Positions 20,826 to 27,373 of a DNA stretch of 64,000 nucleotides are shown here, one piece after another; the first letter of the stretch is position 1; every line of letters starts with the position of its first letter. The stretch is from assembly GCF_002154695.1 (NCBI RefSeq), contig NZ_MTAV01000044.1, positions 1 through 64,000 of the forward strand, given 5' to 3'. This DNA comes from Nostoc sp. T09. GTDB taxonomy: Bacteria; Cyanobacteriota; Cyanobacteriia; Cyanobacteriales; Nostocaceae. The translations under genes were made by a program, and so were the position numbers. Below the pieces are notes generated by a model that worked only from the letters and a program-made list of their open reading frames with translations, was not told the origin of the DNA and did not search any database.

Positions 20826-21245
20826 CTAGATATCAGATGAATTGGACTTAGAATTAAGGCTACCTAAAGTTACCCCCAATTGCACAGCAACCATCCCAAC
20901 TACCATACTACCTAACCAATAGAGTAGAGCTACTGTTGTATTGCCTTTATCTATTTGGGTAAATGTTTCTAATCCGAAAGTCGAAAAAGTGGTATAGGCA
21001 CCACAAAAACCAGTTGCGATCGCTAACCGAATTTCCGGTGAAAGGCTTTTAAACTTTTGCTCGTTTAAGGTATAAAACAAAGCAATAATAAAACAGCCCA
21101 TTACATTAATAAAAAACGTTCCATAGTAGGAAAAATCTTTACCAAAAGTTGCTTTGGTAAATTCAGTTATAAAGTAGCGTCCTAAAGCACCTGGAATAGC
21201 ACCCAAAGCGATTGCCATGACGGTGCGAACAAAAGTATTTTGCAT
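20826..21245 (-). CDS. crcB: Fluoride channel CrcB/FluC, copy 1
   Basis: Small dual-topology membrane channel that expels fluoride. From ATG 21245 it has 139 residues with four membrane helices and the family motifs GALGRYF, GTFFINVMGCF (pore asparagine), and GFCGAYTTFSTFGLE with the conserved phenylalanine/threonine track. A longer frame to 21284 adds 13 unconserved residues. It lies 68 bases downstream of a second crcB on the same strand, so the two are probably co-transcribed. Confidence 0.93.
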   Translation of the reverse strand: MQNTFVRTVMAIALGAIPGALGRYFITEFTKATFGKDFSYYGTFFINVMGCFIIALFYTLNEQKFKSLSPEIRLAIATGFCGAYTTFSTFGLETFTQIDKGNTTVALLYWLGSMVVGMVAVQLGVTLGSLNSKSNSSDI

Positions 21246-21313
21246 TATCAAAAGTTTTCTTTGTAATTCAGTAATTGGATACAAATTATTATTTTCGCTC
21301 TAGTAAATCGGTA

Positions 21314-21709
21314 TTATCCTAAAATTAGCTGCGCTAAATAACGACCTAATATAATACCAATTACCGCTAAAATTGCACTGCCTGCCCAGTAAAAAATGCT
21401 GGCTCCCTGTTTACCATTCCGCCACAGCGTCAATGTATCGTATCCGTAGGTTGAAAAAGTTGTATAAGAACCTAAAAAACCAGTTCTTACCAGCAAATCC
21501 ATCTCAGGTGGAAATCCTTGAATTCCCTTAAATAAGGTGAAGCAAAAGCCCATTAGTAAACAGCCTGTGAAATTGATAATAAAAGTACCGTAAGGAAAGT
21601 TTGTTCCTAAAGCTCTTTTGCAAAATTCCGTCAGATAATAGCGACTCACAGCACCAGGAATCGCACCGATAGCGATCGCAAGTACACTGAACAAAGTAAC
21701 ATTTTGCAC
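21314..21709 (-). CDS. crcB: Fluoride channel CrcB/FluC, copy 2
   Basis: A 131-residue paralogue of the neighbouring crcB, with GAVSRYYL, GTFIINFTGCL and GFLGSYTTFSTYGYD. The start is GTG at 21709, aligned with the MQN start of the other copy, with AGGGG about 10 bases upstream. FluC works as an antiparallel dimer; paired genes may make a heterodimer with fixed opposite orientations, as known for CrcB pairs in some bacteria. No fluoride riboswitch was seen upstream. Confidence 0.93.
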   Translation of the reverse strand: MQNVTLFSVLAIAIGAIPGAVSRYYLTEFCKRALGTNFPYGTFIINFTGCLLMGFCFTLFKGIQGFPPEMDLLVRTGFLGSYTTFSTYGYDTLTLWRNGKQGASIFYWAGSAILAVIGIILGRYLAQLILG

Positions 21710-22072: not shown

Positions 22073-22303
22073 TATCAGGTGCGGTTGCTCACCTGCGTTC
22101 GTTTTCATCTGATAAGGTATGTTATTGACTTTAGTCCTAACGCACCGTTAATTTACGACTTTTGGTCAACTAATGCCTGGTATTTCAACTTGTGGTCAAT
22201 TAAATACTTGTAGATGGGTTTTTCTGCTGAGATCGCAGTTCACCTCATCACTGCGATCGCATACTCTATTGACTCCTCCCGCTGACACATATACAATTCA
22301 GAT

Positions 22304-22506
22304 CGAGTAGAAGGGGAGTAGCTGCTGGTTTTGAATTACCAGCGCATCTGAATCAACATACTGGCGATGAGCCTGGTTCAGATGACAAATATTAGATATT
22401 TGGAAGCGAGACCTTCACTAAGTTCACACCAAAATGTGTGAAGCTTGGTGAAGTTTTAGCGCTTTCATCAAGCTTCACATCGTTCAACGATTTTTCAGGA
22501 GCTTGA
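22304..22506 (+). promoter_or_regulatory. yybP-ykoY manganese riboswitch with translational expression platform
   Basis: The aptamer shows the two signature internal loops: GGGGAGTAGC (22313-22322) and GCGAGACC (22406-22413). P1 forms between 22306-22314 and 22412-22419, a P2-type hairpin is CTGGT...ACCAG (22324-22342), and CATCTGAA pairs with TTCAGATG (22345-22384) around GATGAGCCTGG. Downstream, segment A (22412-22429) can pair either with P1 or with segment B (22435-22452); B can pair instead with C (22466-22479); and C can pair with GGAGCTTGA (22498-22506), which contains the Shine-Dalgarno. Mn2+ binding should stabilise P1, free B to hold C, and expose the ribosome site. The downstream gene is a UPF0016 Mn exporter, as known for this riboswitch class. 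Confidence 0.85.
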
Positions 22507-22510
22507 GAGA

Positions 22511-23131
22511 GTGCTAACAGCTTTTACCGCAGGTTTGTTACTAATTACAGTTTCAGAGCTAGGTGATAAAACATTTTTTATCGCCGTAATTTTAGCAATG
22601 CACCACTCGCGGCGTTTAGTATTCATCGGGGTGATAGCCGCTTTAGCTGCAATGACAATCCTTTCGGTGATATTAGGACAAACGGTATCTTTGCTGCCAA
22701 AGGTTTATATTCATTATGCTGAAATCGCTTTGTTTATTGCTTTTGGTATCAAGCTCCTGTATCAAGCTAGTAAGATGTCTCCCGCCAGTTGTGATACGGA
22801 AGTAGTAGAAGAAGCCGAAGCTGCGGTGAAGCAAGCCGATTTACAATTACCTAAACGCAAAACGCAACTGGCAATTATCACCGAAGCCTTTGTTTTGACA
22901 TTTATGGCAGAGTGGGGCGATCGCACGCAAATTGCTACTATTGCTCTAGCAGCCGGGAATAATCCAATTGGGGTAACTATAGGTGCAGTGTTAGGACACG
23001 CTATTTGTGCTGCGATCGCAGTGATTGGTGGCAAAATGATTGCAGGTAGAATCTCTGAACGTCAACTAACTTTGATTGGTGGATGCTTGTTTTTAGTCTT
23101 TGGTGTTGTTGCTGCTATTGAAGGAGCATAA
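22511..23131 (+). CDS. mnx: Manganese exporter of the GDT1/UPF0016 (TMEM165) family
   Basis: Membrane transporter that moves Mn2+ (and possibly Ca2+) out of the cytosol; the Synechocystis member Mnx protects against manganese excess. The 206-residue protein has six helices in two halves, each with the family signature: ELGDKT (16-21) and EWGDRT (about 135-140). GTG start at 22511 with GGAG nine bases upstream. The preceding yybP-ykoY riboswitch gives independent support for a Mn role. The symbol follows the Synechocystis name by family and context. Confidence 0.9.
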   Translation: MLTAFTAGLLLITVSELGDKTFFIAVILAMHHSRRLVFIGVIAALAAMTILSVILGQTVSLLPKVYIHYAEIALFIAFGIKLLYQASKMSPASCDTEVVEEAEAAVKQADLQLPKRKTQLAIITEAFVLTFMAEWGDRTQIATIALAAGNNPIGVTIGAVLGHAICAAIAVIGGKMIAGRISERQLTLIGGCLFLVFGVVAAIEGA

Positions 23132-23273: not shown

Positions 23274-24662
23274 TTAGTTTTTATCAATAGGAATTTCAAT
23301 ACAAAATTCTGTACCTTGTCCTACTTCAGATAGAAACCACATAGTTCCACCGTGTTTTTCTTCAATAATTTGCCGACTTATAGACAATCCCAATCCGGTT
23401 CCTTTGCCTACAGGTTTAGTAGTAAACATCGGTTCAGATAATCGCTGTTTGACTTCTTCTTTCATGCCAATACCATTGTCGGCAATTTGAATTATCACCA
23501 CTGAACGCTGTTCATTAATATCAGTACGAATTCTAATCTGCCCTTGGTATTCTCTCACTGAAAAATTACTATTGACAAATGACTCTTCTATTGCATCAAT
23601 TCCATTAGCGAAGAGATTCATAAAAACTTGGTTCAGCGGACCTGGAAAACATTCTACCAGTGGCAAAGTTCCATACTCTTTAATAACTTGAATTTCCGGA
23701 CGTTCAGGGTTAGCTTTGAGGCGGTATTGCAAAATTAATAATGTAGAGTCAATACCTTCATGAATATCTGTAGGTTGGGCAATTGTATCATCTCGGCGGG
23801 AAAAGTGCCTGAGTGCATGAATCATCTGTGTCATCCGCTTTGTGCCTTTATGCATAGATGAGATGATTTCTGGAAAGTCGCATATCAAGTAATCTATATC
23901 AATTTCATCTATTTTGTTGATTATTTCTTCCTCAGGCTGAGGATAATATTTTTGATAGAGACGTAACAAATCAATAAAGTTTTGAGTATATTCTGAGGCG
24001 TGACCTAGATTGCCTAAAATAAAGTTGACTGGATTATTAATTTCATGGGCAATCCCAGCAACTAATTCACCAAGGGCAGACATTTTTTCTCGTTGTACCA
24101 AGCTAACTTGAGCTTGGTGAAGATTATGTAGAGCTTGAGACAGTTGAGATGTTCTTTCTTCTACGCGCTGCTCTAACTCTTGAGTCAGCTTTTGTAACTT
24201 CGCTTCAGCTGCAAGACGTTCTGCTACTTCTTGTTTAAGTTGCTGATTTTGAGCTTGCTGTTGCTTGGTGAGGTTACGTATTTTGAGATGAGTCTTAACA
24301 CGAGCCAGTACTTCTTCTTGCTCAAATGGCTTAGTAATGTAATCTACCGCACCTAAACTGAATCCTTTAACTTTATCGACAGTTTCTGAGAGGGCTGTCA
24401 TAAAGATTATCGGGATATCACAGGTCACAAGATTTGATTTTAAGCGATCGCAGGTGGTAAATCCGTCAATTCCCGGCATCATCACATCCAATAAAATGAT
24501 ATCAGGACAAGCATATTCAGCTTGAGCGATCGCACCTTCACCATTTACAGCAACCAATATCTCCCAACCAGTATCCATCAATGCTTCCGATAGCACTTCC
24601 AAATTATTGGGGTTATCATCCACAATCAAAATTACTCCTGTTTCCAGAGCAGATATATTCAT
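23274..24662 (-). CDS. Receiver-histidine kinase (REC-coiled coil-HisKA-HATPase)
   Basis: A 462-residue soluble signalling protein. The receiver domain (about 12-130) has the phosphoacceptor in LLDVMMPGIDGF (about D58) and the conserved KPF lysine. A coiled coil (about 135-190) leads to a HisKA-like segment with GIAHEINNPVNF (His206) and an ATPase domain with the N box (MNLFANGIDA), DNGIGM and GKGTGLGL. Its ATG overlaps the stop of the upstream hybrid kinase by four bases (ATGA), so translation is probably coupled. Third gene of a three-gene operon; likely takes phosphate from that kinase. Confidence 0.9.
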   Translation of the reverse strand: MNISALETGVILIVDDNPNNLEVLSEALMDTGWEILVAVNGEGAIAQAEYACPDIILLDVMMPGIDGFTTCDRLKSNLVTCDIPIIFMTALSETVDKVKGFSLGAVDYITKPFEQEEVLARVKTHLKIRNLTKQQQAQNQQLKQEVAERLAAEAKLQKLTQELEQRVEERTSQLSQALHNLHQAQVSLVQREKMSALGELVAGIAHEINNPVNFILGNLGHASEYTQNFIDLLRLYQKYYPQPEEEIINKIDEIDIDYLICDFPEIISSMHKGTKRMTQMIHALRHFSRRDDTIAQPTDIHEGIDSTLLILQYRLKANPERPEIQVIKEYGTLPLVECFPGPLNQVFMNLFANGIDAIEESFVNSNFSVREYQGQIRIRTDINEQRSVVIIQIADNGIGMKEEVKQRLSEPMFTTKPVGKGTGLGLSISRQIIEEKHGGTMWFLSEVGQGTEFCIEIPIDKN

Positions 24663-27373
24663 TGTTCACCTTCTCGATATAGCTGAATAAATTCCTTGAT
24701 TTTTTCGATTTGAAAGCTTTTTGCCAGTTGCAGTAACTCTTCAGCAAAAGGTACAAACTTTTCATCTAAATTTTTTAGCTGCTGTGCTTGCTCTCGAATA
24801 GCTTTAATGTTACCTCTCATTGCCAATTCCAAAAGTTGTTCAATTTCTTCAGGTGGAATCACAATTGAGTCAGTACTTTTTTGCTGAGCATTCACAGAAG
24901 TGACTTCTAGGGTTTTTTGTTCTTGTGGTGACTCATAAATCCACTCAAATTGCAAGTGTTGCTGTAACTTCTCAAATAATTTATCTGCTTGCACTGGTTT
25001 TAGTAGAAAATCATTGCTACCAGATTCTAGACTTTGATGCGCTTCAGATTGAAATATATCAGTAGAAGAAAAAATAATTGGCAACTCTTGAAATTCTGTT
25101 AGCCTTCGCAGGCGACGGCTCATTTCCAGTCCATCCATATCAGGCATAGCGAAGTCAGTAATAATCAAGTCTGGTTGAAATTGAACTGCTTTATCTAAGC
25201 CTTCTTGACCGTTAAATGCCTCTGCTATTTCAAAGCCCATATCTCCTATAAGATTAATAATTACCGAACTGTTTTCTATATTGTCATCGACAATCAAGAT
25301 TTTTCGTTTATTGCCAGTAATTCCTATAATCTTTTTAGGAACAGCTACGCCAGAACTAGTTTGCTGATGAGTATTGATGAGTGTTTCACGATCCGATTTT
25401 CCTGGGCCATTTTCGTAAATCCATTCAATCTGTAAATATTTCTGTAGCTTTTCTAGTAAATCATCAGCATGTACAGGTTTGGGGAGAAAGTCATCTGCAC
25501 CAACTCCTATACTCTTGTGTTCGTCAGATTCAAAGACGCTGGCAGATGAAACAATGATTACCAATTCCCCAAATTCTGGCATTTGTCGGAGGCGGCGTGT
25601 TAGTTCAAAGCCATCCATTACAGGCATTGTCAAGTCAGTAATTATTAAATCAGGCAAAAATTGCAAAGCTTTTTCTAAAGCTTCCTGACCATCAGTTGCT
25701 TCTGCCATTTCAAATCCAATTTCCTCTAGCAAATTGACAACAACAGAACGGTTTTCCCACTTATCATCAACAATCAAAATCCTGCGTTTACCATTGGCTA
25801 TACCAACAATTCTGCCATCAGTTACAACTTTAGCCGATTGTATCCAGTCAGCCGATTCTTGTAAGTCTAAGTCAATCCAAAAAGTACTACCCTGACCTAA
25901 CTCACTTTTGACCTGAATTTTACTGCCCATTAATTGCACAATCTTCTGACTAATTGCTAAACCTAACCCTGTGCCTTCTGATTGCTTTTTAGTATCTCCG
26001 ACTTGCTCAAATGGTAAAAATATTTTAGCTACCTGTTCTTGGCTCATTCCAATTCCAGTGTCAGCAATTTGGCAGCGAATTGTCTTAGTTATTTGTTGGC
26101 TATTCTCGGTTAACGAAGGTTGCTCAACACAGCTAACATCAAACTTCACTCCTCCTTTTTCTGTGAACTTAATAGCATTGCCTAACAAATTAATTAATAC
26201 TTGTCGCAGTCGCTTTTCATCTGCGCAAATGCCAATAGGTAAATCTGAAGTTGGTTGATAAATAAATGAAATACCTTTTTGGTCAGCACGAATCCGACAA
26301 ATTTCCACAACACTTTGCAGAAATGCGGGAAAATGGAAGTCATGGTTGTAAAGTTCCATTTTCTGAGCTTCTATTTTGGATAAATCTAGAATATCAGTAA
26401 TTAATGTTAGTAGATGTGAACCGCATTGATGAATAATTCTTAAGCCATTTTGCTGTTTAGTAGTTAAGTTTCGATCGCGTTGGAGAATTTGAGCATAACC
26501 CAGAATGCCATTGAGTGGGGTTCGCAATTCGTGGCTCATGTTAGCCAAAAATTCACTTTTGGCACGATTCGCTCGGTCGGCAAGTTCTTTTTTTCCTTCT
26601 AAGGAGCGGTAAGATTCAGCTAAGGTTGCAGCCATTTGATTAAATGCATCTGCTAGTTGTTCAATTTCATCTTTAGTTTGAATATTTAAGCGGTATTCTA
26701 GATTTCCCTTGCCGATGATTGCTGCTCCTTGTTGCAACTTTTGAATTGAGCGAATTACTGGGAGGAGAATCAACAATAATTGACCGACAAAAACCAGCAG
26801 CATAGATAAAATGAGAATTTGTCTGACCAGTTGAGTATTATGTTTAAAATGCTCAAATTCTTGCTTTGCTAACACATCCTGTTTTTGTAGCTTCTGAATT
26901 AAGACATCTAAATAGAGTTCAATATCCCTAGAAAAAGCGTTAATAACTCGAAAATCCTGTTGAGATTCGGCTAATTCTAGGGGTTTTTCGATATGAGATT
27001 GACTGGTTAGTTCTGTGACTAGTTCAGCAAGAAGACTATGGCGATCGCGGATTTTGCCTAACTCCGAAGCTATCCCTGGATTTAAATTTTCAAGCTCAGA
27101 CAAATCTGTAACGAATGCAGTTAATGCGTCTTGGTATTTCACCAAACTGGCAGTATCGCGCCTTAGTAAAATTATGTCTTTGAGTGCAGCTACCTGGTTA
27201 TTTAAAGCAACATTTATTTTTAAAATAGTTGTCAAAGCTTTAGCATTTTTAGCTTGAGTATCCTGCGCTGTACTTTCGGCTTGCCTGATGAAGATGTCAC
27301 CGCCAATTAAAGTGGAAACAACTAGTCCAACGACAATCGCAGACGACCCAATGCACTTGGTCGTGATTCGCAT
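24659..27373 (-). CDS. Hybrid sensor histidine kinase with two receiver domains
   Basis: A 904-residue membrane kinase. Two membrane helices (about 9-30 and 186-206) bracket a helical periplasmic sensor of about 150 residues; HAMP (about 207-260), HisKA with [10 protein letters not shown] (His281), HATPase with DTGIGM and GTGLGLA, and two receivers (starting near 527 and 689, with [10 protein letters not shown] and [10 protein letters not shown]) follow; the tail is helical, and an Hpt-type phosphotransfer role there cannot be shown. It starts 14 bases after a PhnD-like lipoprotein gene and overlaps the next kinase gene. Inference: the lipoprotein supplies the ligand signal to the periplasmic domain. 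Confidence 0.92.

Follow-up and report, generated by a model that had tools for sequence, protein, structure and literature searches.

A divergent yybP-ykoY riboswitch with a conserved, probably translational relay in the leader of a GDT1-type manganese exporter gene of Nostoc and other cyanobacteria

The closest described relatives of the leader analyzed here are riboswitches of the yybP-ykoY class, whose metal site is formed by the interface of the L1 and L3 loops (passages in PMC6754395). In Escherichia coli, the mntP leader switches translation ON in response to Mn (passages in PMC9603457 and PMC11647493). In the yoaB leader of Lactococcus lactis, the switch helix is P1.1, for whose 3' strand the next hairpin, an intrinsic terminator, competes (passages in PMC11087558). 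The leader of the GDT1-type exporter gene in Nostoc sp. T09 shares its aptamer core with E. coli mntP and alx, but the gene that follows is GDT1 rather than mntP or alx, and the repeats that we call segments A, B, and C have no counterpart in the mntP and alx leaders, as judged by eye only. It likewise has P1.1 as the switch helix with a contested 3' strand, but the place of the terminator is taken by an A:B pairing followed by pairings of B with C and of C with the Shine-Dalgarno (SD) region, and there is no conserved U-tract.

Other translational riboswitches have anti-anti-Shine-Dalgarno platforms, relays in which a segment pairs with the anti-SD and thereby releases the SD. The platform described here differs in that its relay is joined to a Mn aptamer and in that the anti-SD also lies over the start codon. 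The leader represents a known riboswitch class in a genuine, divergent cyanobacterial form, and its relay is conserved and probably translational. We consider it probable that the leader acts as a Mn2+-responsive translational ON switch whose outcome is fixed co-transcriptionally, together with ribosome loading. Our analysis adds four points to the preliminary description of this DNA: scores below threshold across the sampled class, covariation of all three pairings, the occurrence of the leader before MntP, and the requirement that the decision be co-transcriptional.

Oxygenic photosynthesis cannot do without manganese, yet an excess of the metal is toxic. A 2024 paper describes Mn-dependent regulation in cyanobacteria as poorly understood and names ManSR alone (PMC11649195). 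A 2020 review places a UPF0016 gene of Anabaena under ManS/ManR and reports that, among 333 strains screened that have a UPF0016 gene, 328 carry a yybP-ykoY riboswitch (PMC7380456), and passages of a further source report the class in more than 75% of the groups surveyed (PMC3766115). Cyanobacteria may be among those strains and groups, so earlier work may already have recorded the class in this phylum. Our literature searches, which covered titles and left most subscription papers out of reach, returned no publication title on a cyanobacterial Mn riboswitch. The riboswitch passages found in a paper on Limnospira (PMC8400943) concern other riboswitches or references, with no Mn riboswitch among them, and the word "manganese" is absent from them.

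The exporter locus and its aptamer

The window, by which we mean the whole 64,000-nucleotide stretch of DNA analyzed, comes from an 8.25-Mb genome of the Nostocaceae type. At 22511-23131 on its + strand lies an exporter gene with a GTG start that encodes a GDT1/UPF0016 protein of 206 aa (PF01169, 159.1 bits against a cut-off of 27), for which the closest named relative among the best 80 of 433 relatives is that of Nostoc sp. 106C, at 97% identity. The features of the leader are collected in Table 1. The predicted promoter pattern recurs in 29 of 35 Nostocales leaders (a count made without a shuffle control and including L075, where the register is wrong), and the remaining 6 carry TTTAC at -35. 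Because the promoter-like pair is retained in most of these 35 relatives, it supports a transcription start just before P1, which in the window would fall near 22304.

Table 1. Features of the exporter leader, in window coordinates
Feature	Position	Strand	Basis
Predicted sigma-70-type promoter, TTGACT-17-TACAAT	22269-22297	+	10/12 matches; 1 found against a mean of 0.7 in shuffles
yybP-ykoY-type aptamer, four-way junction	22305-22420	+	RF00080 31.2 bits; R1 130.1 bits; consensus fold
P1.1 5' strand GAAGG, pairing with CCUUC (22412-22416); switch helix	22310-22314	+	Five pairs unchanged in 31/31 aligned leaders
L1 signature, GGGGAGUAGC	22313-22322	+	GGGGAGTA in 80/80 named relatives
L3, putative Mn-sensing loop, UCAACAUACU	22353-22362	+	Agrees with RF00080 consensus
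GCGAGACCUUC, strand facing L1 and P1.1 3' strand; end shared with segment A	22406-22416	+	G[CT][GA]AGACC in 80/80 named relatives
Segment A, CUUCACUAAGUUCACAC, pairs with B; first 4 nt also in P1	22413-22429	+	Lowest-energy fold; A:B swap test z -9.8
Segment B, GUGUGAAGCUUGGUGAAG, partner A or C	22436-22453	+	B:C 92.4% of cells paired; swap test z -12.3
Segment C, anti-Shine-Dalgarno	22456-22479	+	22456-22476 with SD/start region, 22463-22479 with B; C:SD z -13.0
Shine-Dalgarno AGGAG	22497-22501	+	Sequence; GGAG paired with C in lowest-energy fold
SD/start strand of the C:SD helix, GUG start included	22498-22517	+	Lowest-energy fold

A default Rfam scan lists nothing at the leader. Under a relaxed threshold, with 401 bases searched, RF00080 matches 22312-22485 on the + strand at 31.2 bits (E 6e-7), short of the gathering cut-off of 45 bits, which is an annotation rule rather than a structural feature and by which the leader would not be annotated as RF00080. 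Searched genome-wide, the leader is the sole RF00080 match in the 8.25 Mb (27.2 bits, E 4.6e-5). We also built a cyanobacterial covariance model, R1, from 31 aligned leaders, the window included; it scores the window leader, itself part of the model, at 130.1 bits, and the next-best match within the window reaches 12.6 bits. Run without filters, R1 also picks up two E. coli leaders, that of mntP (42.8 bits, E 2e-9) and, weakly, that of alx (19.5 bits, E 0.005). Significant similarity in sequence and structure thus links the leader to validated yybP-ykoY members in both directions of search, and the reciprocal match to mntP ties it to proven Mn riboswitches despite its sub-threshold Rfam score. 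By these similarities, 22305-22420 is a divergent yybP-ykoY aptamer. Weak microRNA and other Rfam matches over the leader bases were taken as chance.

The preliminary description had proposed a yybP-ykoY riboswitch upstream of a Mn exporter and had staked that proposal on an RF00080 match. The covariance search returned one, though below the cut-off, and with the reciprocal detection of mntP it bears the proposal out. Every motif quoted there lies where it had been placed: GGGGAGTAGC at 22313-22322, GCGAGACC at 22406-22413, TCAAGCTTC at 22468-22476, GGAGCTTGA at 22498-22506, and the GTG at 22511-22513.

The consensus fold of the 31 leaders has 32 pairs, 7 of them with two-sided changes, and forms a four-way junction that carries the L1 (GGGGAGUA) and L3 (ACAUACU) loops and is closed by P1 (GAAGG/CCUUC). 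Each L3 position is invariant or at least 90% conserved among these leaders. The 80 named relatives of Table 1 are the best 80 of 433 found via the exporter, and the motifs were sought up to 280 bases upstream. The aptamer strand and the end of segment B vary among lineages: leaders of the Brasilonema kind (L066) have the strand GUGAGACC and a B ending in GUCUCAC, and those of the Fischerella kind (L098) have GCGAGACC and a B ending in GGUCUCGC, so that in both the A:B helix can extend into the aptamer core. An insert of ~50 to 75 bases sits in the hairpin preceding GxGAGACC in three relatives of Brasilonema and Scytonema (L066, L077, and L100).

Covarying pairings between the aptamer and the start codon

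The leader folds at -84.1 kcal/mol, against -54.1 kcal/mol in shuffles (z -6.4, 0/200). In its lowest-energy fold, 22456-22476 (with 22467 bulged) pairs with 22498-22517, a helix that covers both the GGAG and the GTG codon. The anti-SD pairing of C put forward in the preliminary description is therefore borne out, in a helix larger than reported that takes in the start codon. Its claim that A pairs with either P1 or B stands in part: shared bases do exist, but P1 (22310-22314/22412-22416) and A:B overlap in 22413-22416 only, and the core of A:B can form while P1 is in place, so that in this species the two are only partly exclusive.

Among the 35 Nostocales leaders, A:B is paired in 95.0% of cells, B:C in 92.4% (with 12 two-sided cells, 0/500 shuffles), and C:SD in 87.0%, the last not beyond shuffles (112/500 for cells paired). 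Two-sided changes are clearly above shuffles for B:C only. Because this column-by-column test was too weak for C:SD, we added distant leaders. The enlarged set of 118 leaders was reduced to 63 at <80% similarity by removing 55 redundant ones; two leaders with an unclear start codon (L147 and L164), a repeat of the window (L120), and four loci without GDT1 had been left out beforehand. In a swap test on these 63 nonredundant leaders, pairs drawn from a leader's own segments are more stable for A:B (z -9.8), B:C (z -12.3), and C:SD (z -13.0), with 0/10,000 permutations for each, though the permutation ignores kinship and the z values are inflated to some degree. The control pairings have no own-leader advantage (A:SD, z +2.5; B:SD, z +2.0; A:M, z +0.8). 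The A/B/C pairing and the anti-SD match, which the earlier description had exposed to a check in homologues, are conserved with covariation across the sampled cyanobacteria. One leader (L168) has changed all four segments together (A AAAUC, B GAUUU, C AAAUUC, SD GAAUUU).

In all 48 of the leaders for which duplexes were listed, C:SD spans an SD-like motif, defined by a permissive pattern; the other 15 of the 63 had been set aside beforehand, mainly because their C is of another type, for example one that pairs with the start codon. In some lineages (L154 and L156, for instance) C is UCAUGC facing GCAUGA, which contains the start codon itself. By eye, C (UCAUGC or similar) pairs around the AUG rather than mainly with the SD in L154, L156, L157, L165, L169, and L172.

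The anti-SD helix over the SD and start is conserved and the anti-SD has a second possible partner, which marks this as a probable translational platform. The A:B hairpin with its U residues could instead be an intrinsic terminator of the L. lactis kind, C:SD being secondary. It occupies the place of the P1.1-competing terminator there (passages in PMC11087558), UUUU follows it at 22454-22457 in the window, and 21 of 35 Nostocales leaders have UUUU no more than 14 nt beyond the B motif. We regard a transcriptional switch of this sort as quite unlikely: UUUU is so placed in only 15 of the 63 nonredundant leaders and at least six U in eight occur in 11 of 63, a terminator scan with narrow loop and stem limits found none in 22150-22560, and C:SD and B:C covary, which a terminator alone would not need. 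An intrinsic-terminator platform joins its hairpin to a conserved U-tract, and here the U-tract is not conserved; we reject a terminator at A:B as the conserved mechanism, possible as one is in Nostoc.

Timing of the switch

P1 controls the partner of B when leaders are folded as truncated RNAs that end before the SD. In the window leader so cut, the A:B state (-69.1 kcal/mol) and the state combining P1 with B:C (-67.7 kcal/mol) are nearly equal, and P1 combined with a shortened A:B is worse (-60.4 kcal/mol). We folded 62 leaders in this way, the 63 less one (L173) without a usable P1/L1. With no bonus on P1, B is mostly with A in 54 of the 62 and with C in 8; with a P1 bonus of -8 kcal/mol, a size that is arbitrary, the proportions are reversed, 54 having B mostly with C and 8 with A. 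B is with C in 8, 22, 32, and 54 of the 62 at bonuses of 0, -3, -5, and -8 kcal/mol, respectively. Stabilizing P1 by 8 kcal/mol makes B exchange A for C in 46 of the 62 leaders, and in the other 16 B keeps its partner, 8 staying with A and 8 already with C. With the C region shuffled, B is with C in just 0 and 2 of the 62 at bonuses of 0 and -8.

Full-length RNA behaves otherwise. Median SD accessibility across the 62 leaders is 0.25 versus 0.26, the same with and without P1 stabilization, and in the full-length window leader C:SD beats P1 with B:C by 12.2 kcal/mol. P1 with B:C comes at or below the alternative, i.e., near balance, in 6 of 35 homologues. An equilibrium three-state model of the full-length RNA, which is OFF with or without P1, is rejected. 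The three-state switch of the preliminary description, to be probed by folding with and without P1, has support in the truncated RNA, in which the partner of B moves with P1, but not in the full-length RNA at equilibrium, where SD accessibility is unchanged.

Read at face value, full-length equilibrium folding that stays OFF with or without P1 would favor a constitutive platform, in which the 3' segments are only a stable hairpin that hides the SD and never switches. B:C, however, covaries (z -12.3) and has no role in such a hairpin, and we judge this possibility very improbable. Because C:SD is preferred at full length even with P1, the decision of a switching leader would have to fall during transcription, and the folding energies make the relay workable only if the state is fixed then and kept by ribosome loading. 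The choice of state is probably made co-transcriptionally rather than at equilibrium. Path calculations are suggestive and agree with a kept state only in part, since the computed refolding barrier is higher with P1 in only 41 of 54 leaders and hardly differs in the window (10.0 versus 10.8).

The switch that we favor would operate as follows. Transcription would begin immediately before P1. At low Mn2+, P1 would not be held by the aptamer, and A would capture B; C would stay free and, once the SD emerged, would bind the SD and GUG start, turning translation OFF. With Mn2+ bound, P1 would retain the first bases of A, and the shortened A:B would lose to B:C; C would already be occupied as the SD emerged, a ribosome would load, and the exporter would be ON. 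Both Mn2+ as the ligand and an ON response to its binding are inferred from the kind of aptamer and the genes that follow it. In a variant of this scheme, C:SD would gate translation and the untranslated mRNA would undergo Rho-like termination or decay, so that Mn2+ would raise both mRNA and translation. Transcription through the E. coli mntP leader is subject to termination by Rho, which Mn relieves (passages in PMC11647493); such Rho-coupled control is compatible with the present results, and we hold a Rho- or decay-coupled switch to be unlikely.

Distribution and downstream genes in cyanobacteria

At E 0.01, RF00080 matches in 162 of the 192 genomes sampled from the family, and none of the 192 exceeds the cut-off; at E 0.001, matches occur in 114 of 376 genomes of the class, of which none reaches the cut-off (best 42.8 bits). 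That 0 of 192 and 0 of 376 genomes exceed the cut-off points to a divergent clade, and since every cyanobacterial member met scores below it, such a clade would have gone unseen. R1 at E 0.01 matches in 180 of 388 genomes of the class. GDT1 is present in 142 of 145 genomes, and an R1 match accompanies it in 69 of 100 genomes with at least three GDT1 domains versus 3 of 45 with two or fewer; many GDT1-bearing cyanobacteria are thus without an R1 match, and a rule that at least three GDT1 domains imply the riboswitch is rejected as a tendency only. The window's own genome has a second GDT1 locus (contig C58, 21862-22451), made of two neighboring frames with one domain each, at which R1 has no match. 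Leaders of the same kind precede GDT1 in Anabaena azotica (L089) and in a Trichormus (L105).

To see which genes lie behind the leader, we examined 90 loci, the best 30 R1 loci and 60 picked for variety among the matches listed, the window itself included. A Mn homeostasis gene follows here and at nearly all of them: tblastn finds a GDT1-like gene at 86 of the 90, one of them (L147) having a distant GDT1 paralogue (PF01169, 138.8 bits), and two more (L152 and L166) have MntP instead (PF02659, 170.3 and 117.3 bits). Before mntP at L152, the A:B, B:C, and C:SD duplexes come to -20.9, -20.7, and -20.9 kcal/mol; at L166, A, B, and C are kept as judged by eye, the SD is poorer, and the start is likely an ATG further downstream. 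One locus (L177) has no recognizable target gene. At another (L153), an aptamer and an A/B/C-like platform precede what looks by eye like the beginning of a broken dehydrogenase-like gene; a transposase-like frame with a weak match also lies downstream. At L161 (G437, contig C107), two aptamers lie ~1.1 kb apart on the same strand, the second before GDT1.

A table in PMC9936198, as far as its passages go, puts both GDT1 and MntP under LysE, and the two are accordingly different families that are not proven unrelated. That a second family of Mn exporter follows this kind of leader is our best evidence for Mn2+ as the signal. The Pfam name for GDT1, divalent cation/proton antiporter, would also suit an aptamer of yybP-ykoY fold tuned to another divalent ion. 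Its L1 and L3, however, fit the Mn class, and because MntP follows a leader of the same kind in two genomes, we think a non-Mn ligand very unlikely.

We lean toward the view that many cyanobacteria possess a Mn2+ riboswitch clade of their own, with a one-time co-transcriptional relay running from P1 through A, B, and C to the SD, used as a cassette before both GDT1 and MntP and serving as an intracellular Mn sensor beside ManS/ManR. If this is true, intracellular Mn sensing in cyanobacteria becomes directly testable, an annotation blind spot is mended, and we have a translational riboswitch for which folding at equilibrium predicts no change of state.

The surroundings of the exporter gene offer several minor observations. 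Just upstream of the Mn leader, on the - strand, lie two adjacent crcB fluoride-exporter genes (20826-21284 and 21314-21709; TIGR00494, 99.8 and 114.6 bits), near which no RNA family appears between 20650 and 22200 at E 0.5. Two large sensor-kinase/response-regulator-like frames, named by eye, occupy 23274-27373 on the - strand and end just past the exporter gene. Farther along, on the + strand, 30372-30432 matches the Plastid-psbN 5'UTR RNA (RF04353) at 55 bits against a cut-off of 50.
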